DNA of 64,000 nucleotides. Source: Gyrodactylus bullatarudis. Lineage: Eukaryota > Platyhelminthes > Monogenea > Gyrodactylidea > Gyrodactylidae. The notes below the pieces were generated by a model. That model ran no database searches and had not been told where the DNA came from. It saw only the letters and a program-made list of their open reading frames with translations. The position numbers were made by a program, and so were the translations under genes. The DNA is taken from positions 300,236-364,235 of the forward strand of contig SSNU01000132.1 of the NCBI GenBank assembly GCA_012064415.1, written 5' to 3'. Below, in pieces: positions 13,901 through 56,914 of this stretch (the first letter of the stretch is position 1; each line of letters opens with the position of its first letter).

Positions 13901-16900
13901 TTGAGGACATAGCCCATGAGTTCAGAGATGTTCAGTACTACAGTGTTATTGATCTTAAGGAAGCATACCTTCAGGTCGAGCTAGATGAAAGCTGCAAACA
14001 GTACACAACGATGTCAACCTGTAAGGGATATTATTACTTCAATTATTTGCAGTTTGGTCTGGCCGCTGCCCCGCAAATCTTCCAAGAGATCATGGACACG
14101 CTGCTGGAAGGATTACCCAGAGTAATAGCATATCAGGATGATATTCTAATTGGAGGGCTGGACATGGATGATCATGATCAAAAGTTCGAGGAAGTCAAGT
14201 CACGGCTGGCCATTCACAACTTTGAGATAAACATGAGCAAACTCCAGTATCGTTGTAAGAAAGTCAAATATCTTGGATTTGTGTTGTCTGATGGAAAGGT
14301 ATTACCGGATCCTGAGAGATTGGAGAACTTCCTGCGCATTTCGCCACCGTGTAACAAGAAAGAACTCCATAGTGTACTGGCCACACTGAGGTACTACAGC
14401 CGGTTTGTTCCAGATTTCGCCATCAAGGCAGCAGGACTTTACGACAAACAGAAGGATGATAAGTTCATCTGGAATGAGGAAGACTCCGGTACACTCAAGG
14501 ACCTTATAACTTCAATGGCAGCTCGATTTATTGTGGGATATGATCTGGAGAAGCCGGTGTTCTTAGCTACAGACGCATCAGACAAAGGAATCGCGTACCT
14601 AGTAGCTCATGACCGTGAATGCCTGCAGATAGTCGATGCCGGCAGCAGATTGTTGAGGGGATCGGAGCGGAATTATTCAGTCATTGAAAAGGAAGCCCTG
14701 GCGGTGGTAGAAGGTGTCAAATATTTCAACAGGTACCTGGCTGGTAAGAAGTTCTCGGTTCTGACGGATCATCGATCACTCACATTTATTTTGTCCAACT
14801 TGGACTCTTCTGGTACGAGATCCTACAGGTTGCAAAGATGGGCGTTCATCCTGAGCAATTATGACTTTGAAGTTACGCATGTTAAGGGTGTAACTGTACG
14901 TTGGCCAGACCTTCTATCAAGATTGACGCAATCAGAGGCAGAACCGCTGGCGGAAGAGCTCCCACCCGTGAATGAAGAGGTTTGCCTTGTGAATGACTTT
15001 TTAGAGGATCCCACTTTATTGGATCGAATTGCTGCCTGCGGGGATGAGGAGTACGCCAAACTGAGGAAATATATATCCCAAGGCTGGCCTGTGAGAACCC
15101 CTAAGAAGTTGTTGCCATATAGTTCATGCCAATACGAGTTGACTCTCAAGGACGGTGTGGTGTTTCGGCAGAACCAGGCAGTTGTCCCACACTCACTCCG
15201 CCAGCATGCCTTGACTTTGGTCCATGGACAACAGACACATTTGGGACATGTCAAAATGAAACTCAAGATGAGGCTGTATTTTTGGTGGCCTAAGATCAAT
15301 CAGGACATAAGTGTGTTCATAACCAAGTGTCGGGTATGTCAGCTAAATGCCAGAAGAAGGGGAGCTTCCTACCTCAAGTCATGGTCAGATACCGAAGAGC
15401 CGTTCGACAGAGTGCATGTAGATGTGGCGACGATTGATGGACAACATTATCTTGTGTATGTGGATGCCCATTCAAACTGGGTAGATGTGCAAAAGTTGAA
15501 GGGACTTACTCCGACGGCGGCAATCCACTGCCTCAAGACCATATTCAAATATATGGGCCCTCCAGGTTTGTTAGTATCAGACAATGGTACCAACTTCACG
15601 TCAAGAGAATTCGCAGATTTCCTGAAAGATAGAAGAGTGTCGCATCGACTGACCCCACCTGGGCACCATGAATCTAATGGGCTGGCAGAAGTCTTCGTGG
15701 GAGATCTGAAGGCATTTATGGCCAAGAACAATGGCGATGCTAGGCTTTTGGATGTATACGTATCTGAGCATAATTCCTCCCCAAATTCGAGAGGAGCCAT
15801 TCCCAACACGCTCATCTTCCTGACACTTCCCAGGTCAAAGTCAGAGTTTGATTTAACGGTGCGAAAAGGGTCAGCTTGTCCGGTGGACGCATTCGTCGCT
15901 AAGGAAAATAAAGGCAAAACTGAGGGCCAAGCTAATGAGTGCGCAGGCTCAAATGTCATAGCAGATGAGTTAGGACGGCTGGTACATGTGTCTGACGTCT
16001 TCCCGAGGAATCTATCAGAAGTCAGTGAGGACCCGACTGAGGTTCTAATGTCCAACGATGATAGTGAAGAGCCAGAGGTAACCAATGCATTGGACCCACT
16101 CGATCCCACTCCGGCATCAAGGCCTGTGAGGCATCGCAAAGTCAAACATTGCAATTGTTGGGGAGAGAGTGATGTTTTGGAATGATCATCTAACTAACTT
16201 TAATTTTAAAATGTTATCAGAATTTAATGTAAAAAAAGCTATTAATTGTATTTGATGATTATTTGTTCAAAATGGACGCGATGAACGACAGTTTCGAACC
16301 GGCACGTTTTTGAATAAACTACTTTATGTACTCTGACCATTTCTTCTCGTGTTCTGAATCTGAATCTGAGTCTGTTTTTGTCCCTCAGTCGAATGCGGTA
16401 CAAAACAACCTTCATCCCGAGGTCACAAATTCACAACAGTATATTTCGACAACAAGTCGAAAAATTGTGAATATTTTTTCCAAAGTTTTTAGTCTGTCTG
16501 AATACTTATACAAAATTTTTAAACTTTTAATTGCACTTACCTCAATACCAGCGAGGTAATTGTGAACATTCATTTTCCTAATGAATAATCGATCATCCTT
16601 TGTATACTTCTCCGATTGATCCTTTGGCATAGATTGTCGGTACCAGAGAGGATTTTCTTGATCTCTAGGACGTCTTATCTGGAAAGTGAAGAATTCATTC
16701 AAAATACTTTTATATCATACAGTTTTCAAATGAAAAATTCATGATTCATATGTTGAATTGAATAGATAAGAATTGAGTCCGTAACTCTTGGCTCAGGAAC
16801 TTCTCGCCAATGCCAAACTCATTCCAATCGTATTTACCATCATTCTTTTCGACAAGCTCCCGACATCGGCCTTACACAACTCAATCTTCGATATTCCATG

Positions 16901-35610: not shown

Positions 35611-38600
35611 ATGACGTGAGTCTTCTTTTCAATGTTCATATCAAATGTTCAATTTTTATGCTTAAACATTTTATGATTAATAAGTTATTTTGTCTCAAAG
35701 ACATGTTGGGCAATCAAAAATATTTTTAATCATTTATACAAAATATTAATACTAAAAATATTCAAAATATTACATGAATAATTTAAATGATTTTATAGGA
35801 CTCCAAAAAATTCTCCAAGTCTTCCAAGAAGGAAGTCAAACAGAAAGGCTGAATCAATGGTCTATTACTTTGAAGATGACCAACTAACTTTGAATGGAAA
35901 ACCCCTAGGTAAAATAAACGATCTGTTAAAGAGCAAAAAACTACGATATGATGACTCAAATGACTTGCTTACCTACGATACTCTTCCAATTGGTTACATT
36001 TCACCAGATTTCAAATTCACCCGTGTACAAATTGATGAAGAGACTGGCAAATGTGAAATTGACGGCTTCAATGCGGGAACATTGATGAATTTATTCGAAA
36101 TGAATGTGCTGCAATTCGGTAAACCAAAGTACTCCATTCTACTGCCAGTGAAATATAGTAAGGTTTTCAATCAATTACTAATTAAAAATCGAATTGTCGG
36201 AGACATTGATGCATTAAATGAACATGGTTTCCTACGATTAAAGACAGATGATCCACGTAACAATGGCATATACTACAATGATATAAAAATAGGATATTTT
36301 AATGAAAGTAGTGATATTGAGAAACTAATTGAAAAAGAAAAACTGAGCAGTCTCATTACGCAAGGAAAAATTATAATTGATGAGCCTGGTTTTGTCGAGG
36401 GAGTCGGAATCGTTGATGTTGACAAAGAAACAGCGATGTTATCCGTAAACTCAAATGAAGTGGGTACAATCGGAGATTTGTGGAAGAACAATAACATTTC
36501 TGTTTCGAACAAAAGAGAAATTCATTACAATGGTAAAGTTATTGGCTATTTTGACGATGGCTTACCTGCAGGCAAAATAACTTTTAATGAAAATGATAAT
36601 AAGGTATACTCAGATGCCATACCGATTGGAGAAATTGACAACTTATTGGAACAAAATCAAATATACATGTATGGATATGAGAAAGGGTATCCTAATCTTT
36701 ATCTAATTGGAGAATTATTGTATATGGATCGATATCCGGTGGGTAATTTCAAAAAACTCTTAAAGGAGAAGAAAATAACAATTACGAAAAAGACTCTGAG
36801 GATCGGTGATGTTGATGTAGCTAATCTCCCAGGTTACATTGAACAATTTAACCTGGATATTAAAGATGGAGTTTTATCGGAAAAAACCTCAATCGAAGAT
36901 TTCATTAATTTCTACAAGTATTGTCCACAAGAAAAGTATCATACAAGAAGTAACGCATCAAGATTCTTTATTGATAATAATAACCAAGTTTTATTGGATG
37001 GAAATAATATTGGTAGTCTGGAGAAGCTACTGAAAGATAAAAAAATTCGCATTGATGAGCTCAACCAGTTGATAATTTACAATTCAATGGTTTTGTGCGA
37101 ATTACCAACCGACATAGTGAGACCTGGTGAGGGCCAACTAATTTCAGAAAATCCTTCAGTCTTTAAAGAATTATATGATTCATGCATTGCAACGAGAATA
37201 AAAGAAAATGGAGATGTTTTCCAGAATGGTGTTTTTGTATTCCGTGCAACTGAAGGTATTTCCAATGGATCCCTAGTTTATGATAATAAAACTAGCATTA
37301 TCTCATTGAAAGATGATCCAATAGCTTACTTGACAAAAGAGACCAAGCCAAGTAAAGTGTTTTTCGACAAAACAATAGCTCAAGTAAGATTGGGTGATGG
37401 AACCATTGGATTCATGGAAGATTTTATGAAAGAAAATAAAATTCGTCCTATTTATAATTATAGGAAAACATATTTAAACGTACCGGAAGATAAAATTATA
37501 ACAGATTCGAATACAGAAGAAATTCAAACAGCAATAAATAACAAGAAATTCAAGATAGACCCAAAAAATAGAACGATTTGGTACGGGTCATCTTATTTAG
37601 GATGGATACCGGAAACTTATGATATTAACACGTTGGCTGGACCAACAGGAGATTTAAAAATTACTGACAAAAATGAATTTATCAAGCTTTACAATAATTT
37701 GAAATATAATCTTACTGTAGATACCAAGGAGGTGACAAAGAAAACTGCTTTGAAACTTCCCAGCACTGTTAAAGGAAAGAGCTCTACAAACAGTTCTACT
37801 AATTCACCATCAGTATCGAGAATACCAACACCGAAATCCGGTAGTAGAGTTGATTTGAATAAAATAGCGGATGAACCCAAAAAGAATTCATTAACAAAGA
37901 CAGAACTGACCTCATCACAATCCAAGTTAAAATCACCATCGACTATGAGTAGAACCAATAGTACTAAGCAATCTAGTGGAAGTGAAAGCAACCTAGTTAT
38001 AAATACGACAGAGGCACAAGCAGTAAATTCAGGAACAGAAATTTTAAAAATCGAGGGTGGAATTGAAACACAAGCTGAAACATCAGAAGTCAAAGAAGCA
38101 AATGTTTCAAAGATTAGCGTATTGGAAGAAAAAGTTGTAACTGGAATACCTTCATTGAAAAAGAGTGAAACTTCATCTATACCTACCGTCGGTGCTAAGG
38201 AGGTTGTATCCGAAACAACGAAAATAGCCAAAACAGTTAAGACTGATGCTGAGTCCAAAGTCAAGGAAGGCCTTGATTGGCTGTCTGGCAAAGATGAGTC
38301 CGTTAAAACTTCAGTCGAAGCCAAAACTGTTACCACTTCATCCATACCTACCGTCGGTGCTAAGGAGGTTGTATCCGAAACAACGAAAATAGCCAAAACA
38401 GTTAAGACTGATGCTGAGTCAAAGATCAAAGAACCTGTTAACACGACAACAGTCGAGAGCAAAACTGTTACCACTTCATCCATACCTACCGTCGGTGCTA
38501 AGGAGGTTGTATCCGAAACAACGAAAATAGCCAAAACAGTTAAGACTGGTGTCGAGTCCAAAGTCAAGGAAGGCCTTGATTGGTTGTCTGGCAAAGATGA

Positions 38601-41600
38601 GTCCGTTAAAACTTCAGTCGAAGCCAAAACTGTTACCACTTCATCCATACCTACCGTCGGTGCTAAGGAGGTTGTATCCGAAACAACGAAAATAGCCAAA
38701 ACAGTTAAGACTGATGCTGAGTCAAAGATCAAAGAACCTGTTACCACGACAGCAGTCGAGAGCAAAACTGTTACCACTTCATCCATACCTACCGTCGGTG
38801 CTAAGGAGGTTGTATCCGAAACAACGAAAATAGCCAAAACAGTTAAGACTGATGCTGAGTCCAAAGTCAAGGAAGGCCTTGATTGGCTGTCTGGCAAAGA
38901 TGAGCCTTCTTCTACTGTTAAAGATAAAGTTGAAATCACAAACGAAGCTGAAGTTTCTTCAAAATTAGAATCATCTACAATCTCTAAAGTCAATTATGGC
39001 GAGAAGAAAAAGATTTCTATAGGATCTGTGAGTACTGGTTTCGATTCAAAGCTTGTATTTTCGGAAAATGTTCTTATTGACGAAGAAGAGGACATTTCCC
39101 AAATCCCTATTCGAACAATTTCAACTACCACACGTCCAGATTTTTCATTTAAAGAATTCGAGACTTTGTCATCTAGTCAGAAAAACAAGATTGAAGAATT
39201 TGTTGATGAGACAATCATTGGAGCACAAGAAAACGCTAAGAATGATAATCAAGGAATGTTTGTGATGAGAACATTTGAGGAAGGGGAAAGAAAATCTACC
39301 TTATTAAATGATGCGAAAACAGCATTCAAGACTGAGGTGAAAGCTGACGCCACAAAGGCTGCCACCGCTATGGACGCAATAAAGACTGAGGTGAAAGCTG
39401 ATGCCACAAAGGCTGCTACCACTGCGGACGCGATAAAGACTGAGGTGAAAGCTGACGCCACAAAGGCTGCCACCACTGCGGACGCAATAAAGTCTGAGGT
39501 GAAAGCTGACGCCACAAAGGCTGCCACCGCTATGGACGCAATAAAGACTGAGGTGAAAGCTGATGCCACAAAGGTTGCCACCACTGCGGACGCGATAAAG
39601 ACTGAGGTGAAAGCTGACGCCACAAAGGCTGCCACCACTGTGGACGCAATAAAGACTGAGGTCAAAGCTGACGCCACAAAGGCTTCAAATGATGATTTAA
39701 TCGAAGCTAATGACAAGAAAGAGTCAGGGGGTTTGATTTCTTCAACTTGGAAATGGTTGAAAGGATCTGGTGACAAGAAAGAAGTTGAACAAACTAATTT
39801 GGAAAAAGGAAATGTAGCAAAGTCTGAGGTGAAAGGAGACGCCGCTAAAGTAGTATCCGTTGTTGACGCAGCCAAGACCGAAATCAAAGCAGACGCTGCC
39901 AAAGTAGCAACTGTTGTCGATGCAGCCAAAACTGAAGTCAAAGCAGACGCTGCCAAAGTAGCAACCGTTGTCGATGCAGCCAAGACCGAAGTCAAAGCGG
40001 AAGCCACCAAGTTGGCTTCATCTGTCGACGCAGCCAAAACTGAAGTCAAAGCAGACGCTGCCAAAGTAGCAACCGTTGTCGACGCAGCCAAGTCCGAAGT
40101 CAAAGCGGAAGCGAACAAACTGGCTTCAGTTGTCGACGCAGCCAAAACTGAAATCAAAGCAGATGCTGCTAAAGTAGCAACCGTTGTCGACGCAGCCAAG
40201 TCCGAAGTCAAAGCGGAAGCGAACAAACTGGCTTCAGTTGTCGACGCAGCCAAAACTGAAATCAAAGCAGATGCTGCTAAAGTAGCAACCGTTGTTGACG
40301 CAGCCAAGACCGAAATCAAAGCAGACGCTGCCAAAGTAGCAACTGTTGTCGATGCAGCCAAAACTGAAGTCAAAGCAGACGCTGCCAAAGTAGCAACCGT
40401 TGTCGATGCAGCCAAGACCGAAGTCAAAGCGGAAGCCACCAAGTTGGCTTCATCTGTCGACGCAGCCAAAACTGAAGTCAAAGCAGACGCTGCCAAAGTA
40501 GCAACCGTTGTCGACGCAGCCAAGTCCGAAGTCAAAGCGGAAGCGAACAAACTGGCTTCAGTTGTCGACGCAGCCAAAACTGAAATCAAAGCAGATGCTG
40601 CTAAAGTAGCAACCGTTGTCGATGCAGCCAAAACTGAAGCTGATGCAACTATTTCTGTTACCACCGATGATGTTCAAATAAACGTTGTAGAAGTGAACAA
40701 AGTAAATTCTGGCATTCCAGATCTTGGTGAACTTACTGAGAACAATGTTGAATCACTTCTCGAGGACCCTTCAATTCTTCAAGAAGATCCAGAAGCTTCG
40801 ATTTGTGATGAAATACATATAACTAACGAACCCACTTCTTATGCACAAAATGCTTTCTCCGAAATGACAGATTGCAAGTCTTACGCATATCATCCTAAAA
40901 AATTCACTTTCGATGTAAAGACAAAAAATTTGGTCGAGTCTGGCCAGACTGTTGGTAAAATTGATGACCTTCTCAAGGAGGAACGAATCAAAATGAATAA
41001 AAAGAGGAAAATTATTCTTATCGATAACGAAATTATTGGAGAATTACCAACGAATTATTTCGAACTCACTCAAGACACTGAAATCAATAAAGAAAATGTT
41101 TCTAAACTGCTGACAGCCTTGACAATTAATAAAATTGATAATTGCATCTATGAAGGTAAAAACAAGTTAATCTCTCTTGACGAAGCTGTTAAACAGGGGA
41201 AAATCAATTATGATCCTAAAGATGAAACTTTCAAGTATGATGGAAGGTTTTTAGCAAGAGTTCCATGTGAAATGAAAAATATCAATGTTGAAATAGAAGA
41301 CAAAACTGGTAAAGTCAAAGAGACAAATAAGGATTTCACAAAATTCCTGATAAGTTCCACTTCCTCAAAGCCCATCTTTCCCAGAGAGCTCGCTACAGTA
41401 TTCATGGTTACTCTCAAAGGCGATGATGTTTACAATAAAGATGGAAAAAAATTGGGCACAATTGAAGAGCTTATCAAGGGAAGCAAGGTTACAGCTGATA
41501 CTGAATCAAAATTGATTATGATCGACAATGAATCTATCGCTAATTTACCCCATGAGTTCGATCATATGAAATTCAATGAGAAGAATGTCCTTGAAGATGT

Positions 41601-43383
41601 GAAAGAATCTGGGAAAATTGCAGAAATTCTAAATCGTAATATCAAATCTATGTTTATTATACGCGGAGAATCACTCTATAATAACAATAAGAAAATAGGA
41701 AACCTTGATGAACTCTTGAAGAAGAATGTCGTTAAAGCAAACTTAGCTTTGGGAACGATAAGTTATGAAAACGAAATAATCGGTAATTTACCTTCAAAGT
41801 ATGACAACTATAAAATTAGCATAGATGAAAAGACCGGAGCAGTGACAGAGAAGGAATGTGGAGCCTTGAGGAAGTTATTAACCATGGGTAGTGAAGAGAA
41901 ATTTGGTACTGGATATAGCGTGGATTATGCCACAGGTATGGTAATGTTCTTTGGAAAACCAATTGGAACGATAACTGAGCTATTGTCACAAGGAAAATTC
42001 ACTGTTGATAAAAAATCAAGGAAGATATCCCTTAATGGTTTCTACTTTTGCTCCATGCCAATCATAAGAAAGATGGTTGGCTTAGAGATTGATCCTCTAT
42101 CGAATAGTGTTAGCGCTAATTCAGCAGATGCTCTACATTGCATTCACTACATGCAGAATGTGAGCAGAAATCCACCCAGCGAGGTTAACGAATTCCATAG
42201 AATCGATTCAACAAAGAAGGCAATCTATATTGATCAAAAGGATCCAGCTCAAACAATTGATGAACTATTAAAGAAGAAAGCATTGAAAGTTGATCAGAAT
42301 AAAAGTGAAATTCTTTGCAATGATAAATGGCTTTGTCATGCCTCTTCAAAGCCAGAAGATGATGGTTATTCTATTGGTGGTGAAAATGTGATCGCTGTCA
42401 ATGACGTTGAAAAGTTTACAAGTTTTCTCAACAACGAGGCAATAAGTGCTAGACTTCTCAAGGAATCTGCTTCATACTGTTATCAACCTGCTACATATGA
42501 TATCAAGAGTTCAACATTCATGATATGCGATAAAAAGGTTGGCAAATTCAGTGATCTCTGTAAGCAGCAACGTCTCTGGTATAATCCTGAAAGGGAAGTG
42601 ATAACTCTGGATGGTCATTTCTTCAAGAATGTTTGTCAGGATCATCTTAAGGAATTTGATTTAGTGATTGATCCCAAATACGGCTTTATCAAAGAATCCG
42701 AAGAAAAGTTTAACAAACTATTGGAAGATCTTGAGACACATCATCACCACGAGGATCATGAAAAAGAGACATTAGACTCTTGTGATACAGTAACTAGCCT
42801 GATCTCAAATCCCAAGAATTTAAATTTATTGGCCAACGATAAACGTATTAAAGTTGAAGCCTACTTGGGTATCTTATACTTGGATGATGTACGTATTGGA
42901 CAAATTTCCGATAAATATTCCGGCAATAAGACTTTGGATAAGTCAAATATTTTGGTTGATGGTAAAACTGTTGGTTCATTGAATGATTTATACAAGTCTG
43001 GTGATATCATATTAGAACAAGATCTAGCTGGCCCATCTGTTTACTTTAATTCGATGAAAAAGTTGAAGCCAATCGTTGATATTAAGAAGTTTGACATTGG
43101 CAAAGCAGATAAGGAGCTGATCAAAGATTTCGATATTGATAGTAGTTTTATTGTTGAAGATACTTTCATGACAAGTTTGTTGAAAATTATCAAAGAAAAT
43201 AAAGAAGAAAACTTGAGCAAAAAAGCTAAAATGATAAAGATTGAGTTGGAGAAGAAATTTGGTCCAGTATGGGAGGTTGTTGTATCAAATTCAAATATTT
43301 CTTGTCGAGTTAATCATGAGGAGAAAATGTTTGCCAATGTTCGTCACCAAGATCGTCAGTATCTCGTCTGGAAATGTCCTTAA
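35611..43383 (+). CDS. Giant TAL-like protein 1: unknown repeat modules plus dynein-light-chain domain
   Basis: Exon 1 contributes only ATGAC (35611-35615, donor gtgagt). Exon 2 (35799-43383) continues in phase, giving about 2529 residues. The N-terminus is a basic TPKNSPSLPRRKSNRK stretch. About eight modules follow to 37700, each with a core like LNGKPLGKINDLLKSKKLR followed by IGYISPDF or a similar Gly-x-Leu-Pro turn. A Ser/Thr/Lys/Ala-rich repeat region runs 37730-40660, then eight more modules (40860-43080), a His-rich HHHHEDHE loop (about 42737-42765), and a C-terminal DLC-like domain (about 43190-43383: GPVWEVVVSNSNISCRVNHE...YLVWKCP). Flatworm TAL proteins end in such a domain but are normally about 200 residues with EF-hands; no EF-hand is seen here. 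A scaffold or cytoskeletal role is inference only. AATAAA lies at 43459. Confidence 0.9.
38170..38907 (+). repeat. Higher-order coding repeat, 165+138 bp units
   Basis: Five copies of TSSIPTVGAKEVVSETTKIA, starting at 38170, 38335, 38473, 38638 and 38776. Spacings alternate 165, 138, 165, 138 bp, a 303-bp higher-order unit. The long form carries KEGLDWLSGKDES; the short form carries KIKEPV. Near-identity of copies implies recent expansion or conversion. Confidence 0.92.
39331..39687 (+). repeat. 54-bp coding tandem repeat, about 6.6 copies
   Basis: Consensus TEVKADATKAATTADAIK, 18 residues, starting at 39331 and repeating every 54 bp. Ala/Lys/Thr-rich and strongly helix-forming. Followed by a unique linker with STWKWLKGSGDKKE. 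Confidence 0.92.
39820..40629 (+). repeat. 54-bp coding tandem repeat, 15 copies
   Basis: Fifteen units of 18 residues, variants of TEVKADAAKVATVVDAAK, SEVKAEANKLASVVDAAK and TEVKAEATKLASSVDAAK. Variants recur in blocks, so larger duplications have copied groups of units. Eighteen residues is five turns of an alpha helix, so charged and Ala/Val faces stay in register. Confidence 0.93.
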
Positions 43384-43880
43384 TTTCAAAAAAGTGAATA
43401 ACCCTTTTATTATGAAAAAATAGATTTATAGAAATTATCCTTATTTTAAGATTTAACAAATAAAAGTGGAGTCTGTTTTTTTTTTAATTTTCAAAATTAT
43501 AGAATGAATAAAAATTAATTTTCGAATCTGAAATACATTCTAAATATGTCAAAGCTTCTTCTTTATTTTTATTCATTCAACTAAAAATGAACGAATCTGT
43601 GAGAACTCACTACTAGTCAGAGACTAGCATGTTAACGCTGATGAGCACCATTGGATGTTAGACATTACTTTTAATAATGGTTTATTGATTACCGATAGTT
43701 TAAGTTGGAATTTACAGATGGACTGAGAGAGAATTGTGATAATTTATTATCTCACATCTGTCACATATGACATTAACAAAAGACGGAATTGAAACCGGGA
43801 TCAACTCAAAGAAACGAGGACGAATAAATATTAGATAACTGCTCAAATCCTTAACTTATTTAACGGGATATAAAAACATT

Positions 43881-44380
43881 TTAACCCTTAAAGTCCCAGA
43901 GAATTTTTTTTCATGACTCGCATTCAATCTTTTGTCTATCCTATGGTTTGTGAATACGCTGATTACGAATCTACAATTATTTCTGGTTCAGATGTTATCG
44001 ATTAAAAAAGGACCCATATTTTGTTCCAAAAACAGGCTATCTTTGTAGATTTAGCAGATAGAATTCAGGCAATTGCATATTTGAATTCTAGAGGTATGAT
44101 TCCTCGATAAAAGTTATCTTACTTTTTGTCTATGACCCTGGGAAGTAGGTTTTCAAAAAACGTTTTAAACAAAAATTTATTTTTCGAAAAAAAATCAACT
44201 CTCTTTAAATTAGTATAGCGCGAGTTTGACGAATGATAGAGCCAAAATTTTTGCGTATGCAAGGAGATTAATAAACTTCCTATCAAATGGCTGGTAAACG
44301 AAGTATTTTCTGATGCTTGAATGAATAATAATGAGTTGCTAAAATGACTTTTGATAGAACTGTCACTGTGGGACTTTAAT
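43881..44380. mobile_element. piggyBac-like MITE, right end eroded
   Basis: The left end TTAACCCTTAAAGTCCC is mirrored near 44369-44379 by GTGGGACTTTAAT. The outermost CCCTT of the right end is lost. The left end matches the one at 5785, and the interior contains the CGCTGATTACGAATC block of the 33275 family. Confidence 0.45.
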
Positions 44381-44488
44381 AAACATTAATAAAATCCTCT
44401 GTGTCTGATCTATCTCAGAACAATTTTAGTGTTTATTGTTTTAAAAATTAAGCTGTTCTCTAATAAAAACATTTGGTAAATAGTTAAT

Positions 44489-45065
44489 GTGAAGATGGGA
44501 ATTTATGGTTTGTACAAAATTCTCGATTTTTTCGTCAAGAATTCGAGTTTGATCGAGATTTTTTGGAATCTGGATCATCATTTGAAGATAAAATTTTTTG
44601 AAATCAAATTTCAAGGAAATTATCAAATCCCGAGTTAGCGCCAAACTTCCATCTTTTGAACTTTGAGTCGAATAATTTTGCTAATATCAATGTCAAAGAG
44701 TACAAAATTGGAATTTTTAGGATGACAATAAGGCAAGAAAACTGATTATCACCATAAAACTCCAGATAAATTCTTCTTACTAAGAAGTTCTTAGAGATCC
44801 TGAATCATCAAATTTTCATCGATTTTCAAGCAGGGAAAATGATCTAAGAATCAAAATTATGTTTTTTTCACGATGATGGAGTGATTCGCAAAATTCAATT
44901 CAGCATATTAAATTTCTTTGACTAATCTTGATCTTAAAAATCGACTTTTGATCACTTTCTTACTTTGAAACAGCAAAATTTTTTAACTCAAAGTTCGAAA
45001 AAATGGGAATTTAATGCTATTTTGCGATTTGAAGTATGCCATAATTTCCTTGAAATGACCAAAAA
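44489..45065. repeat. Composite foldback repeat beside the orphan DLC exon
   Basis: The left half begins GTGAAGATGGGAATTTATGG and carries GGAATCTGGATCATC and GCGCCAAACTTCCATCTTTT. The right half (about 44910-45060) is an imperfect reverse complement of that inner part (ACTCAAAGTTCGAAAAAATG). The result is a long imperfect palindrome ending a few bases before the DLC frame. Confidence 0.5.
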
Positions 45066-45068
45066 GAT

Positions 45069-45335
45069 TTGATCATTAAAAGACGTTTTCATGATGAGGC
45101 AGTCAAAATAAAGCTCATGAATGTTCTAGGAAAAATTTACAGAAAAAGCTTCGATGAACAAGCGAGGATAATAAAATATGAGTTGGAACTCAATTTTGGC
45201 AGCGTATGGCATGCTGTTCTATTACCTTGCAATATTTCCTACTCAGTTCAACGTTGTGAAGGTTCATTGATCCATCTTCTTTACAAAAATTGCTGGTATC
45301 TTGTTTGGAGATTCCCGGCAGAAAAATTTTCCTAA
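45069..45335 (+). pseudogene. Orphan TAL-type dynein-light-chain exon
   Basis: An open frame to TAA (45333-45335) encodes a DLC domain: DEQARIIKYELELNFGSVWH, then AVLLPCNISYSV, then YLVWRFP. It lines up with the C-termini of both giant TAL proteins (KMIKIELEKKFGPVWEVVVS and IAQKIKTYLEKKRGKIWQIV). There is no in-frame ATG at the 5' side and no EF-hands or modules upstream. A weak acceptor (ATGATGAGGCAG) precedes TCAAAATAAAG. It abuts the foldback repeat, so a third TAL gene truncated by that insertion is the simplest reading. It could instead be the last exon of an unseen short TAL gene; AATAAA lies near 45518. Confidence 0.7.
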
Positions 45336-46928
45336 AGACCCTGGTCTCCGACAAATTATGATATGGATGAATATTTTGACGCAAAATTCATCATTAAAAA
45401 TTCCTTTATGCAACGATACCTCAAAGAAAAATGTAGATCAAACTTAATTAGAAAACCGAAAAAGTTCTAAATTCCCATCTTATCGTGATCCCATTCTTTA
45501 TCAGTACATTTTATTTTTTAATAAACCGGTACTACTTATAAGTAGAGTCACAATTAATTTCTGTAATATGAATCATAATTTATAAATTTTTCAAGACTCT
45601 GATTTCGATCTCGAAACACACACTGTAAGAAAATCAGAAAGAATAGTGCAATATCTAAACGCTTTTTTTGCTTCACTGTATAATATGTTTAAATATAATT
45701 CAAAATTTTAGATTACTCTACTTTTATTGAATATTTTTTCTGGAAAAGCAACCAAATTACGATTTTTTTCTTTTACAAATATGCATAAGGATAGAACTTT
45801 AGAGTCAATCTAAAATCTTTCGACTGATGTTAATTTTTATCAGATTAATATGCGTTCAACCTGTTAAACCCTTCCGTAGCCAGTGTACCCTGTAGGGGAC
45901 ATTGTCTTTTTCTCATCCATGATTCTGTTTTAAAGAATCTAAAAATAGTTTATTGACCACTTTTCTGAAAGTAGAACTAATAGTTCAATACTAATTAGTT
46001 ATAACCTAGCAGTATCATTCCTTCCTCCGTTTTAGTAGGAGAAGAAATTTTGCTATTAAAACATGTCATATTACTTTCTTTGCTAACACATTAACAAAGT
46101 TGATATCAGATAAATTTTTACATAAAAGCCTTAGGTTTTATTGGTGGATTTATTCTTGGTTTTTTTCACCTCAGGTCTACATGAGTTAATGTCCTAATAC
46201 ATTAAGATTTTATTTATTCACTTTTCAGTACGTTTGAAATTAGCTGATGCAATAAAAATACATATTGTTACAGTTAAATCAGGTAATAACCATATTGATT
46301 AAGATAAGCCGAACCGAAACTCAATGGCCGTTCTTCGTTAAAAATATATTGAATTTATTTATAATAAATTTATCACTTCAACTCTTAGTACAGGTAATCT
46401 TAATTTTGGTACAAGATAATTTGATTAGCCTTGGTTAAAAATCTATTTAAAATCGTAAGATTCACTTAAGATTCCAAAATTATTTCAATATAAAACTATT
46501 TTTCATTGATTTCTTTAGTCCATCAGATGAAAAGATCATGTATTTAAAAGATTTGATGATATACTGGTAACAAACAGTCGAGGATTGTATAAAGTACATA
46601 TACACATAATCTAAAAGAGATTATAGGATATAAGAACATTGTAGGTCTTCTTATTAATCAAACAAATTTAAAAGAAGAAATGATGTAATTTTTCTCTTCT
46701 CGTTTATACAACTCATATACTCGAGATCAGATTAGTTTTAATCTATCTTGTAAGAAAACCTTTAGACTACTACAAGAAAAGAAAGAATTCTGTGTGTATG
46801 CAAAGACAATCAACATTCTCCTTTGAGTATAAATTAACTACATACAACCTTTTTAAAACAAATTGTAAATAAAAAAGAAAATTATCAATTTTTTTACAAA
46901 TTATTTTTCTTGAACATAGTGAAAAGCA

Positions 46929-49900
46929 ATGAATGAAGATTTGAAGCATTTCCTCGAGGCCGACACTGATTACTCTGGCTATTTGACAATTGTTGAGTTG
47001 ATTTCTTATTCAAAAAAAATTAAAGATAACGAATTTTCCACAGTACGTTTCCTGTTCTTTTCATTGTTTTCTTTTCCTTCAAGAATTTCACAAAAAAATA
47101 TGACCTAAGAAACAAGGGATACATCTCCATCGATGATTTGAGCGAAGTTCTCAAATTTGATGCTCGCAGCCTCTTAAAGTGAGTTGAAAATTTCTTATCT
47201 ACATCCTGAAAAAAAAATTTGCAATTTTATAAAAGATTTAAAATTTTAAAATAATTCTTTGAGCATTCAGAATCCTTTCTAAAATTTCATGTTAACTTTT
47301 TTGTTTGAAATGTTACAATTTCATGAAGCAAATCTATGTTAAATTTATGTTTAATGAACAGAGAGAATCAATTCATTCATCAACTATGACTGGGCTAGTT
47401 ATTTCTTGACAAAGGAAGATAATTATAATTAGATAAGAGCAGAAAGAAAACAATTCAAGCTTAATTTTTACCTTTGTATATTATTGGTGAGAGAATTAGG
47501 TATCATAAGATTAAAAAAGTACATCTTTCAGATCCTAAGGTGTAAGAAAAAAAAACTTCAAAGAATTCAATGATCAATAAATTCATTGAGAATTGTTTGT
47601 GTTCCAGTTTACAATCATGATTCAATATTTACTACGAAATGTATTAGTAAATCTACAACTCAAATATATCATACTGTAACAGATTCATTTTATCATTTGC
47701 AGAGATTATGCCGGTGTGAATCAATATTTAAATTTTTCTCTACTCACGTGCTTCAAAACCATCATTTTCTCTCAAATGATCAAAACTTTATCTCTAGAAA
47801 ATGTTTATTCAGTTCCTTTCGACTAAAGTTCACTTGAAACTTTTTCTCAAAATCATTGTATCGGAACATACAATGAAAAGACTAATATTTTTTGCTAGGT
47901 GATAAAATTTAAGATATTATTGCCTGAAATCTCCGCATCTCACAGTAACTGGCAGAGAATAAATCAACTTGGTGTTAAACCATACCACACTTGAATTGAG
48001 GGTATACTTAAAAATCTTCTCTTATCTCATCACCACTTCAAGGATGCATGACCGATAGTTGTCATGAGAAATATAAGCTCTTATATTTTCGTATGTGAAA
48101 ACAAGATAATATTGAATTGATCTTAAAGAAACTGGACGAATAGCTTTGTCTTTCATTTAAAGGCGGTTCCAATAATATGATATTCTTGGTGTTTCATTAT
48201 CACATCAATAGGATTTGAATGGTCCAATAGGTCTTTATCAAAATTCAGGCATTTATATTGTTTATTTTCTTTTACAGAAGTTTCAAGTTGGCCCCCTAAG
48301 TTTATCCACTTTTTAATATGCTCACAAAGTGTCCTAAAGTGTCGTGATGAAAATCTTTTATTTTTTATAAAATAGCGAATAATTCCTATTTATAAAGTGA
48401 ATTTTATCCACTTTTTAACATGCTCTAGGGGTGTCAACAAAGAGTCTTATTTATGTTAAGAGATTTTTATAATAAACTGTTGACGGCATAAATGTAAAAA
48501 TAAGTAAGCATACTTACCGTAAATATGCTATCTGGGGATAGAAATATTCGAAAAACGTAAAAGTACTAGGTGAGGGCTTTTTCGGAAAAAACGTAACTAT
48601 GCTTATCTACGTTAGTAAGCATAATCACGGCGGTATATACATATGTTCAAAAATTCTATCAAAATACGATGAAAGTCGAATATGGTGGAAAAACTGTAAA
48701 ATCTTAAAAAAACTAGAACAACTTGGAAGAAAAGCCTCTCCTATTGAGGAATTTTCTCGCTACTTATAATTAAAATTTTGTAATTTGTATTAGACCTATT
48801 TGCTAGAGTCAATATAAAAGACTAAAATCTTTTTTTTATTACAGAGAAATGATCACCAAACAGGAAGAAGAGAAAAGGGATTTGCGCCTTCAATTTATGA
48901 AAAAGCTGGCAAATCAAATGGAAGAAACATCTGCATATTCCATTGATACCGCGAAAAAGGAGCTTCTCAAGGATAACAAGTCAGTTGGAAAGGTTACAGA
49001 TCTTGTCAAGAGTAAAAAACTCCGTTTAAATGATAAATGCGATACACTGTATTATGATAATGAAAAAATTGGCTATGTCTCTAGTGACTTTACATTTACA
49101 AGAATTCGTCATGACACGGAAAGTGACCAGGTTTATGTCGACGGTTTCCCTTGTGGGGATTTGTGTGATATGTATCAATATAATGCCCTTCAATTTGGAG
49201 AGTCCCGCTTGGATGTTGATTTGACAACAAACTATAGTGAAAAATTCAAGCAAATATTCGCTCAAGGTCGATCACTCGGTGATATTGATAGACTTTACGA
49301 GTTGGGCTTTGTATCTTTGGTAAGAGACAAGGAAGAGGAAGAAAATGGAGTTTACTATTACGATATTAAATTGGGCAAGATCAATAAGACTGCTGCAATT
49401 GTAGATGAAGATCCTCCAAAACTCAAGTTTGATGGCAAGGGTGAAAAGAAAATTCCCCTCTCAGAACATATATCAAATGGAAGCATTGAAATGTTCAAGC
49501 CAGGTACACTTAGGAACATGGACAAATTCAGTGTTGATCGTTCAACTGGAGAAATGTTTGTTAACGGAGCGTCAGTGGGTAGTTTTGGCGAGAATTGGGC
49601 AAGTGGTAAAATCAAAGTGGATGAAAAACGAGATATATTTTATAATGATGAAAGGGTTGGTTATTTCGATGATCAACTTCCTCCAGGAAAATTAGTCTAC
49701 AATGCTGCTGAGAAAAAGGTCTTTGCAGGCGATATTTGTCTTGGGGAAATAGACAATCTTCTTGAACAGAAATCAATTTACATGAAAGGTCTCGACTGTT
49801 ATTTCCCCAAATTATTCCTAAATAATAATAACTTGTATTTGGATCGTTTCTTCGTCTCCTCATACAAGGATGCCTTATCAAAGAAACTCATCAAGGTCGA

Positions 49901-52900
49901 TAAATCATCAAATCGAGTATTGATAGGAGATGTTGAAATTTCAAAAATACCTGATAAACTGGATCCTTTCAATCTTGATATTTCTCCAGATGGAAGTCTT
50001 ACAAAGAATAATAGTGTTGAGTCTTTTGTCAATTTCTACAAGTACTGTCCAATGGACATGTTATCTACCCGGTCGAATGCATCAAGAGTTTTTATTAACG
50101 AAACAACCCAAGAGTTGAGCCTAGATGGACGTCCTATTGGTAAACTGGAAAATCTTATCAAAGAAGGCCGTCTAAGAATTGATGAGCTTAATGAAATCAT
50201 AACCCTTGATGGAATGTTGTTGGCTAATTTGCCTGAGCACATTTTGGAGCGTGGGGAAGGCACAAAATATGATAAAAGTCCTATATCTTTCATTGAAGTT
50301 TATCGTGCAGCAACCTCCACTAGAATTTGTCCAGCTGATGGAGATCTTTATCAGAATGGTGCCTTTATTGGAAAGATTTCTGAAAGCGTTTCCAATGGTG
50401 ATATCTTTTATGATCAAAGCAGTGGAATAATTAGTCTCAAGGATGATCCAGTTGCATTTATTCCAAATGAACTCAAACCAGCTAAAGCTTCTTTGAATAG
50501 AACTACTTGCGAAATGAAACTAGATGATGGCTCGAAGGGAAGCATTGAAAGTTTAATTGAGAAAAAGAAAATTCTACCCATTCCGAATTATCGTTCAGCC
50601 TACATCAATGAGCCATTAAGGAATATTTATATTTTTGATAAGAATGTAGGTACAATTGATACATTCTTGCAGCAAAAGAAAGTTTCAATTGATTTATTAA
50701 CACGGTCAATATGGTGTGATTCAGTTTATCTCGGTACCCTGCCAAAAGATTATGATATCAATTCATTAGTTGATGTGAAGACTGGCATTGTCAAGACAAC
50801 TGATCCAAAGGTTTTCCTCAAGGCTTACCGAGAAACTGATTATTATTTAAATAGCCTCTTGGAAGGTCCTAACAAGCCAACTTATATAAAATATAATCCT
50901 GCAATATCTGGAGATACAGGTTCCAAACTTGCAAACTTGAGTATTTTCAGTACGGAAGGTTCAGGTGCTGCAAAAACTACAGGACCCACTTCAACAACAG
51001 CAAATAACCAACCTGTTACGAACTTGCCAGGTACATTACCAGGCACAACAACGACAACAGCAAATAACCAACCTGTTACGAACTTGCCAGGTACATTACC
51101 AGGCACAACAACGACAACAGTAAATGGCCAACCTGTTACGAACTTGCCAGGTACATTACCAGGCACAACAACGACAACAGCAAATAACCAACCTGTTACG
51201 AACTTGCCAGGTACATTACCAGGCACAACAACGACAACGCCAGGAGCAACAACAAATATTTCTGGGTCTACAGCTCCAAGCACAGACATAACTGCATCTC
51301 AAATAAAATTCAATTATTCTCAACCATTGAAGGATTCCTATGGAAAAACATATCCCAATTCTATTGTGGTTATCGATGATAAGGCTCAAATAATTACAGA
51401 CTCAGCCAAGAATCCTGTGGTTGGAACAACTGTCAAGGTTGATGACAAGAAAAACATAATTTACGATTCAAATAAAAATCCAATCTACAATTATGGTCTA
51501 CTTTTGGATCAGAATCTCAAGCCAATTCTTGATGCAAAATCTAATAAAATCTATGGTCAAGCAGTGTACCTCGATGGTAGCGGCAAGGTAGTTCTTGATG
51601 CAAACAACCAACTCAAAACAGTAACTAAAATAACAACTGATGCTAATGGAAAACCGATTGTATCTGATGTTCCAAAGTCTGTTAACTCTAGTGTTCCTCA
51701 AGTATTATTGACAAATCCTGATGGAGTAACCAAGACTGAGACAAGTAATTCACTTCCAAAGACACCAGCAACAACAAGTCAACCTGGTACGAATGATAAT
51801 AAAATTACCGCTACTAAAAATACAGATCAAAAATCATCGAATGATATCAACATTTTATCTGGTAAAGATTCAAGTCTTCCAACCAAGACTTTAGCTAAAC
51901 AAAAGGTTGCTTTTGACATGAGTGACCCTCTTGTCGCATTGAAAATAGATGGAAACAAAGTTGGAACCATTAAGAGTCTGGTTGATGAAAACAAGGTCAT
52001 TTTAAATCCGTCAAATAAACTTTTCTATTATCAAGAAACTCCAATCAAAGTTTTACCACCCAATTATTCATTCATGGGTCTAAATTATGATCGTGATTCA
52101 AACTCGATAAAATCCACTAATCAGGATGCCTGGAAGAGCGTTTTTAATCCTTATGTTGTCTCTGATTTTAATGAAGCGATTTATCAGAATTCCCAAAGGG
52201 TCGACTCAATAAATGATGCCATCAAATCAGGAAATCTTGCCCTAGACAAGAGTACAGGCAACATAATGTACCAGAATCAATTCTTAGCTCCTCTAAATGT
52301 TAATCCAGAGATGGTTGGAATTAAAGTAGATCCAGCTACAAGTAAAATAACTGAAATTAGTCCTGATGGTCTTAAATACATGCATGATACAACTGATGCT
52401 CCAGCAGTATTCCCGTTCATACCATCAAAAATATTTGATTATACTCTGAAAGATGGAAAGGTCTATGACTTGCAGAAAAAAGAAATTGGTAAGATTGACA
52501 AATTACTGGCTGATGGTCGTTTCAGCATAGATAAGGATGACCAAGTTGTCACCTTGGATGGTAAAGCTTTCACAGCCCTACCTTATCACTATTTTGAGAA
52601 GAGCGAATGGAAATATGATAAGGAGAACCTTGTACTCGACAAGACTATGAACCCTCAAGTTCTTCAAGAGGCTTATGCATCTCTCAATGTTGATATGCTG
52701 GTTAATAAGGATAATGTTCTTTACAAGAATGATCAGAAAGTAGATCAAATTGCAACTTTAATCAAAGACGGCAAGATAAAAGCTGATTTAAAGACTGGTC
52801 AATTAATGTATCAAGATAGTGTTCTTGGACCATTGCCAGCTGATTACGAGAAACTTGGTATCATGATTGATCCGAAATCAGGAAAAATTACTGAGAATAA

Positions 52901-54512
52901 ACCGTTTGCCTTTGATTCTCTAATGCTTCAAGGCAATAAAGAACGATTTGGCAATCGATATTCCGTCGACTATGCTAGCAAGGAAGTATTTCTCAACGAT
53001 AAGCCCCTTGGAACTATTGGAAAATTGGCAACTAGAGGCAGATTCTTTTTGGATAAAACAAGTCATAATATTCTCTTGGATGGAGCCTACTTCTGTTCTC
53101 TTCCAACAAATATGGATACCATTTTGCTTAGCACAGAAAAGGATAACGATACCATTACAAAGAGTTCAGCTGACTCACTCTATGTTTTGCATTATATTGA
53201 AAGTGTTTCGAAGAATCCACCTCAGCAAGTTAACATGTACCACCGAGTAGACGCTTCCAAAAAGACTATCTATATTGATCAAAAGGAACCTGCAAAATCT
53301 ATTGAAGAACTTGCTAAAAACAAAGCTTTCAAGGTTGACCCAAGCAAAAATGTCATTCTCTGCGAAGGTATCAGCTGTGGTTTTAATCCAGCCGATGCTG
53401 GATCAAAAGGATTCTCTGTTGGTGGTGATGGAACTATTACTGTCACTGATGCAGGAAAGTTTACAGAATTCCTCAAGAATCAATCGATTCTCTCTCGACG
53501 CTTGAAAGAATCAGGTGCTTACTTCTACCATTCGGCCGTATACGATCCAAAGACATCATCGTTCAAGATTGAAGATAAGGACATCGGTAAACTAGAAGAT
53601 CTTTGCAAGCAAAAGCGTCTCTGGTACAATCCATTGAAGGAAGAGTTGACTTTAGATGGCCATTACTTCAAGGACATGTGCCAAGAGCATGTTAAGGAAT
53701 ATGACATAAAAATTGATCCAACTTATGGTTACCTCACACAAGCGGAACCAGCCAAATTCAACAAGCTCCTTGAAGAGCTTGAGACTCATGATCATGATCA
53801 TGAGGACGACAGTGAAGGAGAAGCTGATCGCCACCATGATCACGATGATGGAGTGAATGTTTTGAATTTGTTGACAAACCCAGATAACTTGAATCACTTG
53901 GCCGAGGAGAATAAATTAAGAGTTGAAAGTAACTTGCGCATCTTGTATGCTTTCAACCAACGTGTTGGCCAGTTCTCCGAAGCTCAACCAGGTAAATTCG
54001 AGATAAAGAATAAAAATGTTCTCATTGATGGAAAAGAAGTCGGCACAATCCATGATCTATTCAAGAGTGGACAACTTCAATTCAACTTTGAAGATGTTGA
54101 AGCCTCAAAGGCATACATCGATGATATCCAGTGTCAGACAATAAACGATTGTCATGAAGCCTTTTATCATGAGAATAAGGAGCTCCACAAAGTGGAACCT
54201 TTTGACAAGACTAAATTGTCAGAGGAAGATAAAAAAGACTTTTCCTTTGACACTCTGTCAACTGAGATTCCCAAATCAATCATGGATGATATTATGACAA
54301 TTGTTAAGAAGAGTTATAGTGAAACTGGAGAAGAACGTGTCATTGCTCAAAAGATCAAGACCTATCTGGAGAAGAAACGGGGAAAGATATGGCAAATTGT
54401 TATATCAAAACAGAATCTTGGCTGTAAAGTATCACACTCGGAGGACATGTTTGCCAATTTCAATTATAAAAATTTAACTTATATCATCTGGAAGACACCA
54501 AGATCAATGTGA
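46929..54512 (+). CDS. Giant TAL-like protein 2: EF-hands, unknown repeat modules, dynein-light-chain domain
   Basis: Three in-phase exons: 46929-47042, 47084-47178 and 48845-54512, about 1958 residues. Exon 1 carries EF-hand loop DTDYSGYLTIVEL; exon 2 a degenerate second one, YDLRNKGYISIDDL. A charged helix (KQEEEKRDLRLQFMKK) follows, then eight modules (about 48920-50830; LKDNKSVGKVTDLVKSKKLR is the first), a Thr/Pro/Asn-rich centre (50880-51900), eight more modules (51900-54130), and an Asp/His loop (HDHDHEDDSEGEADRHHDHD, 53788-53847). It ends in a DLC domain (KIWQIVISKQNLGCKVSHSE...YIIWKTPRSM). EF-hands plus DLC is the layout of schistosome TAL proteins such as Sm22.6, about 190 residues. 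Here about 1,600 residues are inserted between the two parts. It is collinear with giant TAL 1 outside the centre. AATAAA lies at 54546-54551. Confidence 0.92.
47179..48844 (+). other. Intron 2 of giant TAL 2
   Basis: Donor gtgagt, acceptor ttattacag. Contains a direct repeat of TTTATCCACTTTTTAA followed by ATGCTC (about 48299 and 48407) and a hairpin-like TAAGCATA region near 48510-48625. No exon-like frame is convincing; the open stretch 47586-47837 has no family features. Confidence 0.5.
51001..51238 (+). repeat. 60-bp coding minisatellite, four copies
   Basis: Four nearly identical 60-bp units coding ANNQPVTNLPGTLPGTTTTT, 20 residues (VNGQ in the third copy). Thr/Pro-rich and mucin-like in composition. 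It lies in the centre of giant TAL 2, where giant TAL 1 has its Lys/Ala repeats. Confidence 0.95.
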
Positions 54513-54624: not shown

Positions 54625-56914
54625 AGTGACACATAAATAATAATAAAAGTTTTAAATTCATTGAAAATAATATTTTACAAATTTTGAGCTGAAAAAACAC
54701 CAAAACTCTTCAATAAATAGCAACAGTGGAGAGAAAAGTGAAAAAGCTCACATAGGCCAGGGTAATTGAAGATTATAAGAGTAATTTTTCTGAACACACA
54801 GGTTTGGTTTAAAGTGATTGATGAAGAATTTCTCCTTCACCCACAATTCTGTGCTGTCATCATTTTTATACAAAATTGAGACAAAGCGGCTTTCGAACGC
54901 CTGATGTATGAACTTGGTCTCACTAAGAACCTCAAAGACAATGCAAACACAGAGAAGTTTAAATCATATCTTTTAACTATATATAGAAGTTTTGATCGAA
55001 AACCTTTAAGATCTAGTTTATTAACTAAAAAACATTTTGAGGCATTGAAAGAACTAAAATCTAATGAGAACATTTTCCTTACTAAACCTGATAAGGGTAA
55101 AGGGATAGTTATAATGTATAAGGAGGATTATTATAGACCAGGTTTAGATTTTCTTTCTGATGAAAGTAAATTTGTTAACACAGGGCAAGATAGATCAGCT
55201 TATTATAAGGAAATGGAATCCATGGAACGTTCCATGTATAAGATATCAAAAGGGTTATTCGATAGGAATTTAATTTCTGATAAAACCAGAAGTTTTATAG
55301 CAAAGAAACATAGAGGATTTCTAGATTATATCTACATCCTAAGACACATAAGTTAGTAGATAATATCGTTCCTGAGGTTTTTCCTATACGGCCGATCTTG
55401 GATATGTCGTCATGTCCGCAACATAATTTAGCCAAGTGGTTAATCGACGTATTGAAACCAATACATACTTATCATGCTAAACATGTTGTTAAAGATACTT
55501 TTTCTTTTGTCGATAAGGTTAAGGATTTAAATATTGGTTTAAATGAAATGGTTTCATTAGATGCTAGCTCTTTGTTTCCTAATGTTCCTATTGAGGATAC
55601 CCTTGATGTTATTAAATCTTTTATTGGTGAAGATGATCGTTTTGAACTACAGAGTAATGAGATAGCAGATCTTGTTAGGATTTGCTGTACTAATGTTCCT
55701 TTGTCTTTTTAAAACAAGGTTTTTATTCAAAAAGATGGTATAGCTATGGGATCACCTCTAAGTCCTCTTTTAGCAGATATCTTCTTAGGTTGGTTAGAAA
55801 TAAATAAAATGTCTGATACTATCAATACTTTCACTGATTTATACATCAGATATGTTGATGACACTTTTATTTTGATGAAGCCAAATGTTTCAGTAGACGA
55901 TTTTTTCTTAAAGATGAATTCGTTTCATCCTAATATTAAATTTACTATGGAAAAAGAGTCTAATGAGAGTTTGAGTTTCTTAGATGTCAAACTAACTAGG
56001 AAGGAGGATGGGTCAATACTAAGAAATGTCTACAAGAAGAAGACTGATAATGGAAAATATCTTCATTATGCCAGTTTCAGTCCTCTATCTCATAAGGTTG
56101 GCTTAGTAATTGGTCTAGGAAAGAGGATAAGAAGAATTGCTAGTCCAGAGGAATGGCCAAAAGAAATAGAAGAGTCAAAGTTACGTTTAAATGAAAATGG
56201 TTATCCCAACAGATTTGTTGACAAATTCATCAATATGTCTGATGATGTAGATGAAAGGGTCGACAGAGATGAAGGAGAGAAGACAACCATCTTCATGAAA
56301 CTTAATTTTAAAGGTGACGGTTTCAGTAATGATGTAAGAAGACGACTGGTTAATCTTATTGATCAACAATATGATAATATACAATTGAAAATTGTATTTA
56401 AAACCCAAAGATTATTCAGTTTGATTCATAAGGATTTACTAAAGCCTGAAGTAAAGACTCTTTTGATTTACAAATTCCGATGTGAATGTGGAGCTTCTTA
56501 TATAGGACGTACGATTAGGAAATTGTCAACTAGGTAAAATGATCATCTAAAGAAGGATACAGCAGTGACAAGACACATCAAGCAGGAAAATCATGAGGCT
56601 TCGATTTCTAATTTCTCAATTTTGTATAAAAATGATGACAGCACAGAATTGTGGGTGAAGGAGAAATTCTTCATCAATCACTTTAAACCAAACCTGTGTG
56701 TTCAGAAAAATTACTCTTATAATCTTCAATTACCCTGGCCTATGTGAGCTTTTTCACTTTTCTCTCCACTGTTGCTATTTATTGAAGAGTTTTGGTGTTT
56801 TTTCAGCTCACATTATTTTCTTATATTTTTCAACTTTTACTATACTTCTTTCAAAATTTGTAAAATATTATTTTCAATGAATTTAAAACTTTTATTATTA
56901 TTTATGTGTCACTT
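54625..56914 (+). mobile_element. Penelope-like retroelement with inverted terminal repeats
   Basis: The right arm 56614-56914 (301 bp) is the reverse complement of the left arm 54625-54881 (257 bp). The left arm is the same sequence with a 44-bp internal deletion. Between them lies a broken RT plus GIY-YIG frame. Inverted terminal duplications of the 3' end are known for Penelope-like elements. It starts only 112 bp after the stop of giant TAL 2, just beyond its AATAAA. Confidence 0.88.
54904..56747 (+). pseudogene. Broken RT-endonuclease of the Penelope-like element
   Basis: Reverse-transcriptase parts are clear: TKPDKGKGIVIMYKEDYY, HPKTHKLVDNIVPEVFPIRP (the LPKTHK region of Penelope RTs), VSLDASSLFPNVP, GIAMGSPLSPLLADIF and the catalytic IRYVDDTFIL. 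A GIY-YIG nuclease follows (CECGASYIGRTIRK). The frame is disrupted by a frameshift near 55305-55330, an in-frame TAA at 55710-55712 and another TAA at 56535-56537. The N-terminus is cut off by the left inverted repeat. Inactive as it stands. Confidence 0.88.

Follow-up and report, generated by a model that had tools for sequence, protein, structure and literature searches.

Gene models and terminal domains

The window analysed here is a stretch of 64,000 nucleotides from the monogenean flatworm Gyrodactylus bullatarudis (assembly GCA_012064415.1, contig SSNU01000132.1, positions 300,236 to 364,235 of the forward strand). On its plus strand lie two adjacent genes for giant proteins that end in a DLC domain, one of which is predicted to begin with two EF-hands. 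An initial annotation had proposed two same-strand genes of 2529 and 1958 codons at this place; our models, built on consensus splice sites with exon borders read by eye from the sequence, reproduced both lengths exactly.

Gene 1 consists of a giant exon (35799..43383), a single open frame behind the phase-2 acceptor TTTTATAG, and a putative exon 1 (ATGAC, 35611..35615) that supplies an ATG and a donor (GTGAGT) and is in frame with the giant exon. Together they predict 2529 codons and 278 kDa with no internal stop. Because the putative exon 1 is weak, with five coding bases only, the start of gene 1 is unsure, and translation may instead begin at the ATG at 35857, behind a leader that is trans-spliced or of another kind. 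Gene 2 begins with two exons that each match the Pfam EF-hand family: exon 1 (46929..47042, EF-hand 1), with donor GTACGT and a phase-0 intron after it, and exon 2 (47084..47178, EF-hand 2), with acceptor TTCAAG, donor GTGAGT and a phase-2 intron after it. The giant exon (48845..54512) is an open frame entered through an acceptor of fitting phase (TTACAG), and the three exons predict 1958 codons and 220 kDa, again with no internal stop. Splice sites are of consensus type in both models, with a phase-2 acceptor before each giant exon. Frames this open have a chance of at most about 10^-57 at 30–38% GC, judged by base composition alone. Crude hydropathy revealed no membrane segment or signal peptide in either giant, so both would be cytosolic.

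The C-terminal DLC-like domain that the initial annotation had assigned to both genes exceeds the Pfam cut-off (PF01221, 29.1 bits) in gene 1 (43174..43377, 40.1 bits, E 4.8e-10) and in gene 2 (54258..54497, 49.5 bits, E 5.6e-13), and in the main search of either giant no other Pfam family passed its own cut-off. When gene 2 was compared with the PDB, 15 sequences were found at E <= 1, every one on the DLC end: dynein light chains, the calcium-binding protein chains 5fx0 and 5fwz, and CaBP4 9voa. The match to 5fx0 has an E of 1.4e-5 and that to CaBP4 9voa (residues 106–190) an E of 0.0011, both for the DLC part only. A third, isolated DLC-like exon, absent from the initial annotation, lies between the giants on the same strand (frame 45054..45335, DLC match about 45096–45311). 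It scores 23.8 bits, below the cut-off; an in-house DLC profile also matches it, but this exon was in the training set of that profile. By one possible reading it has a phase-2 acceptor. No EF-hand or module was found near it, and it may be a relic or a gene with a DLC domain only.

The two N-terminal EF-hands that had been claimed for one of the genes belong to gene 2, whose spliced peptide matches EF-hand_1 in two stretches (27.8 bits against a cut-off of 25.4). The first loop (46962–46997, plus strand, DTDYSGYLTIVE) is canonical, with a loop score of 6/6, whereas the second (47102–47137, plus strand, DLRNKGYISIDD) is degenerate (4/6). Since the second loop has Arg and Lys at calcium-ligand positions, one calcium site would be expected. 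The EF piece of gene 2 matches 24 PDB chains at E <= 1, the best being EFCAB6 (8.8e-4), followed by calbindin, calcineurin B and calmodulin types. We also scanned all stop-to-stop frames of at least 15 residues on both strands of the window with EF profiles; as these were built with the exons of gene 2 included, the scan is informative only for absence elsewhere. Upstream of gene 1 it revealed no hidden EF exons. One further match, at 51068–51184 (frame E 1.8e-5; 0.064 for its best single stretch), falls within the gene 2 tandem repeats but in a different reading frame, and was discarded as a repeat artefact.

Module arrays and predicted fold

Between these ends the initial annotation had placed a modular region, and both proteins indeed contain a module of about 71 residues. 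With an iterated profile (i-E < 0.1), gene 2 shows 18 segments and gene 1 shows 17, some of them partial or overlapping, in the same order in both proteins and above shuffled controls. The modules of each giant form two arrays, delimited by the module profile, that flank a low-complexity middle: 35845..37740 and 40891..43143 in gene 1, and 48921..50876 and 51897..54224 in gene 2, all on the plus strand. Seven modules of each array were used in our module alignment (A2), and both C-terminal arrays hold partial ones in addition. The middles differ: that of gene 1 (37741..40890, plus strand) is rich in Ala, Lys, Thr and Val, with Ala/Lys-rich tandem repeats whose units measure 46/101 and 18 residues (138/303 and 54 bases), whereas that of gene 2 (50877..51896, plus strand) is rich in Thr and Asn, with a 20-residue (60-base) repeat present in about four copies at 50994–51238. 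Weak Pfam matches to suprabasin-type and other repeats in the gene 1 middle stay below cut-off. An amphipathic helix was considered for the 18-residue repeat and rejected, its hydrophobic moment not exceeding that of shuffles (five units tried).

A profile built from 13 segments of gene 2 detected 17 segments in gene 1, against none in 201 controls made by shuffling or reversal; this result reflects the homology between the two proteins no less than repetition. Repetition itself was assessed with a profile from 16 C-terminal segments, with segment borders taken from the joint profile; in the N-terminal arrays it detected 5 and 7 segments, against 1 in 402 controls. The two giant proteins align collinearly, over 850 and 990 columns at 35% identity. 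Because they align along both arrays, the module array is older than the duplication, and the alignment supports a giant architecture that predates it. In the corresponding linker of both genes we observed patches rich in His, Asp and Glu (about 53787–53849 in gene 2, HDHDHEDDSEGEADRHHDHDD; about 42739–42768 in gene 1, HHHHEDHEKE), a possible metal-binding stretch.

Alignment A2 (28 of the 35 module segments, each extended to 91 residues) served as input to AlphaFold2. One module was modelled with a predicted local distance difference test score (pLDDT) of 84.6 and a predicted template modelling score (pTM) of 0.70, in the order b-b-b-a-b-b-b-b-b-a of strands and short helices. In a three-module model (pLDDT 80.0) each module shows this pattern again, the middle one incompletely. 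Neither model gave a significant PDB match (Foldseek, VIA). The predicted module fold may be new, although structure searches are no proof of this.

When the assembly was searched with each giant as query, nothing but the two giants themselves came up at E <= 0.001; 15 and 16 candidates were scored, and the counts are lower bounds. In a set of 5.8 billion proteins, where only proteins of 0.55–1.75 times the query length were eligible, no homologue at E <= 0.001 was found for the C-terminal block of gene 2 (7219 candidates) or for its N-terminal block (best 7991 of more candidates). An ordinary TAL of this genome, used as control, found no match in that set either (12 candidates); the set therefore seems poor in flatworm proteins, and the module misses say little about flatworms.

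Ancestry of the giant genes

To be counted as a TAL in published work, a protein has an N-terminal EF-hand, a C-terminal DLC domain and similarity to TALs already known; TALs are also described as having no signal peptide (accessible part of PMC10212073). The reading of EF-hands plus DLC as a TAL layout, made in the initial annotation, agrees with this description. Both giants have the C-terminal DLC domain, and gene 2, as spliced in our model, has the N-terminal EF-hands that gene 1 lacks. For overall similarity a threshold of E below 1e-10 was tried, and the best value seen was 1e-7, against one TAL of the same genome and for the DLC domain only. FhCaBP4 has a 10-residue hinge between its two domains and dimerises through its DLC domain (accessible part of PMC12347358). 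TALs are mostly about 20–23 kDa, and the giants, of 220 and 278 kDa, have neither the short hinge nor the small size; we therefore term them TAL-derived, not TALs. In the accessible part of PMC10212073, three of the four table rows for S. haematobium TALs have 176–190 residues and the fourth (ShTAL3) has 488, so that annotated TALs may already include moderately long ones.

To compare gene structures, we turned to the ordinary EF/DLC genes of the assembly (77.3 Mb, 471 contigs), where a Pfam DLC search gave 41 matches. Of the ten regions fetched from it, nine surround DLC matches, and eight ordinary EF/DLC genes were readable: two near-identical copies at locus L009, two genes at L010 and one each at L013, L015, L016 and L017. 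Several further DLC frames in these loci showed no EF exon. A phase-0 intron separates EF1 from EF2 in all eight genes, as in gene 2, and a phase-2 intron follows EF2 in six of the eight, again as in gene 2. In L017, one of the six, an alternative donor of a different phase is possible, and the two L010 genes read straight on. The phase-2 intron lies 10–11 residues past the EF2 loop in five genes, about 17 in L017 and 13 in gene 2, and the first EF-loop residue is residue 11–13 in the ordinary genes and 12 in gene 2. Gene 2 thus has the TAL-type intron pattern, and this predicted gene structure supports a TAL ancestry of the giants. We consider it moderately probable that the hinge of a TAL-type gene turned into a modular strut and that the gene was then duplicated, yielding a likely cytosolic, DLC-dimerised and calcium-responsive scaffold. 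In gene 1 the EF exons would have disappeared, with the phase-2 acceptor left in place.

Several results weigh against this history. Gene 1 is without an EF-hand, and the profile scan shows convincing EF exons in the window only at 46.9–47.2 kb. We infer from the sequence that the exons of gene 2 are joined in one transcript, and an in-frame ATG (48849) stands 4 bases past the acceptor of its giant exon, where it would suit a separate trans-spliced message. In a single BLAST comparison of gene 2 with one ordinary TAL of this genome, E was 1e-7 for the DLC domain and, for the EF part, 0.003 in the full-length pairing and 6e-4 off register; none of the 24 PDB matches of the EF piece at E <= 1 is a TAL or CaBP chain. 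The three-module model has a pTM of 0.45, so the packing of the modules, and hence the strut, is not established. In a DLC tree of 21 rows (3 from the window and 18 chosen from the fetched loci; 12 of the 18 inner branches open), the two giants fall outside the ordinary TAL-type group of 11 rows, on the LC8 side of a branch at 86/86, not starred. Their pairing is not resolved there, and likewise the place of the 45054 exon and of the C413 row. What the initial annotation had proposed, a TAL gene expanded and then duplicated, is therefore upheld by the EF and DLC ends, the intron phases and the collinear arrays, but not by the DLC tree, which does not nest the giants in the TALs, by the matches of the EF piece or by gene 1 with its missing EF-hands. 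Of the readings compared it has the best support, with reservations about a single transcript and about formal membership in the TALs.

Part of this evidence would also fit EF exons that form a separate small gene or a relic, with the gene 2 giant exon as its own message from the ATG at 48849; the giants would then be DLC-ended module proteins without a calcium sensor. The position of that ATG just behind the acceptor at 48845 and the lack of an EF exon for gene 1 speak for such an arrangement, and the stray DLC exon at 45054 indicates that partial genes occur here. However, downstream of the EF exons no DLC exon was found in the window but the giant's own, frame and phase match exactly across the exons of gene 2, and gene 2 keeps both intron phases of the ordinary genes. 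We regard separate EF exons as unlikely.

The tree bears on a further alternative, in which the giants form a separate family that acquired its DLC domain from an LC8-like gene, their TAL likeness being convergent. Their place on the LC8 side of the 86/86 branch and the EF piece that matches no TAL chain would agree with this, as would the identities of the gene 2 DLC domain, which is closest to gene 1 (37%) and next to one LC8 row (32%). Yet the six LC8-type rows form a clade of their own at 99/99 that excludes both giants. In the loop that follows the Trp, all six of these rows, and C413, have a gap that is absent from both giants, from the 45054 exon and from 11/11 TAL-type rows. The giants, the 45054 exon and 10/11 TAL-type rows also share a C-terminal tail Trp, which none of the six LC8 rows has. 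The EF exon phases and the start-to-loop spacing of gene 2 are likewise those of ordinary genes. Capture of an LC8-type domain thus appears quite improbable, and under the preferred TAL-derived origin we read the giant DLC domains as an old, fast-evolving offshoot.

The fetched loci and the window hold further elements. L009 and L010 (C219:780001-795500) form a cluster of ordinary DLC genes on both strands, some with EF-hands, that includes a near-identical duplicated pair of EF1/EF2 exons. The EF/DLC gene of L017 (C413:137500-143500) has an unusually long DLC exon frame (190 residues), and its row has a long branch in the unresolved group of the giants in the DLC tree; it is a possible intermediate. 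Within the window, a wnt exon, the mark of an animal genome, lies on the minus strand (18581–19396). A Gypsy-type retroelement frame (12433–16185) is open over 1250 residues with protease, reverse transcriptase, RNase H and integrase, at 40–47% GC against 29–34% on either side. Just downstream of gene 2, a reverse-transcriptase remnant (54880–56537) extends over several frames (Pfam RVT_1 16.5 bits, below cut-off); we take it to be Penelope-like by its GIY-YIG-like tail.

Proposed function and known systems

A working mechanism can be outlined for the TAL-derived giants. By analogy with FhCaBP4 (accessible part of PMC12347358), the DLC ends would join two chains into a homodimer, and the folded modules together with the low-complexity middle would serve as its long and flexible strut. 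Calcium would act on the free end of the gene 2 protein through the single canonical EF-hand, and gene 1 would be a calcium-insensitive partner or competitor. The outcome would be a giant cross-linker or tether in body-surface cytoplasm, the tissue being assumed from the family. A bolder version, which we think rather unlikely, is that the giants represent a new class of giant cytosolic scaffold, a TAL hinge filled with about 14–18 copies of an undescribed, new-fold module, acting as DLC-dimerised, calcium-gated struts of tens of nanometres that keep the flatworm surface syncytium together.

Work on TALs treats them as allergens and as targets for drugs or vaccines, and their role inside the worm is little known (in part after the accessible part of PMC4300400). 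A TAL relative expanded ten-fold would suggest that the EF-DLC design has a structural role as a tether, and would offer a way to test this. The giants also illustrate clearly how a coding exon grows to giant size by internal repetition, and their module of about 90 residues is confidently modelled and matched no solved fold here. The literature searched, as titles and starts of abstracts with subscription papers mostly outside, describes no giant TAL or EF-DLC protein. In their accessible parts, PMC12347358 calls the EF-DLC fusion trematode-only and PMC4300400 calls it parasitic-flatworm-only.

We compared the giants with three known systems. LC8 (DYNLL) shares the Pfam family PF01221 but is small and stand-alone (frames of 96–100 residues here), whereas the giants have another loop length and another tail and are excluded from the LC8 clade. 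Alpha-actinin, spectrin and plectin are giant modular cytoskeletal cross-linkers with EF-hands. For the giants Pfam listed no spectrin, plectin or actin-binding domain at E <= 1, and these proteins serve as a working analogy only, a calcium-sensor end with a long repeat strut and dimerisation, with no claim of common ancestry. With the TAL/CaBP proteins of parasitic flatworms (SmTAL1-13, FhCaBP1-4), which also have counterparts of ordinary layout in this genome, the giants share an N-terminal EF pair (in gene 2 only), a C-terminal DLC domain and no predicted signal peptide. The giants differ from them in that gene 1 is without EF-hands and gene 2 places about 1,800 residues between its EF-hands and its DLC domain.

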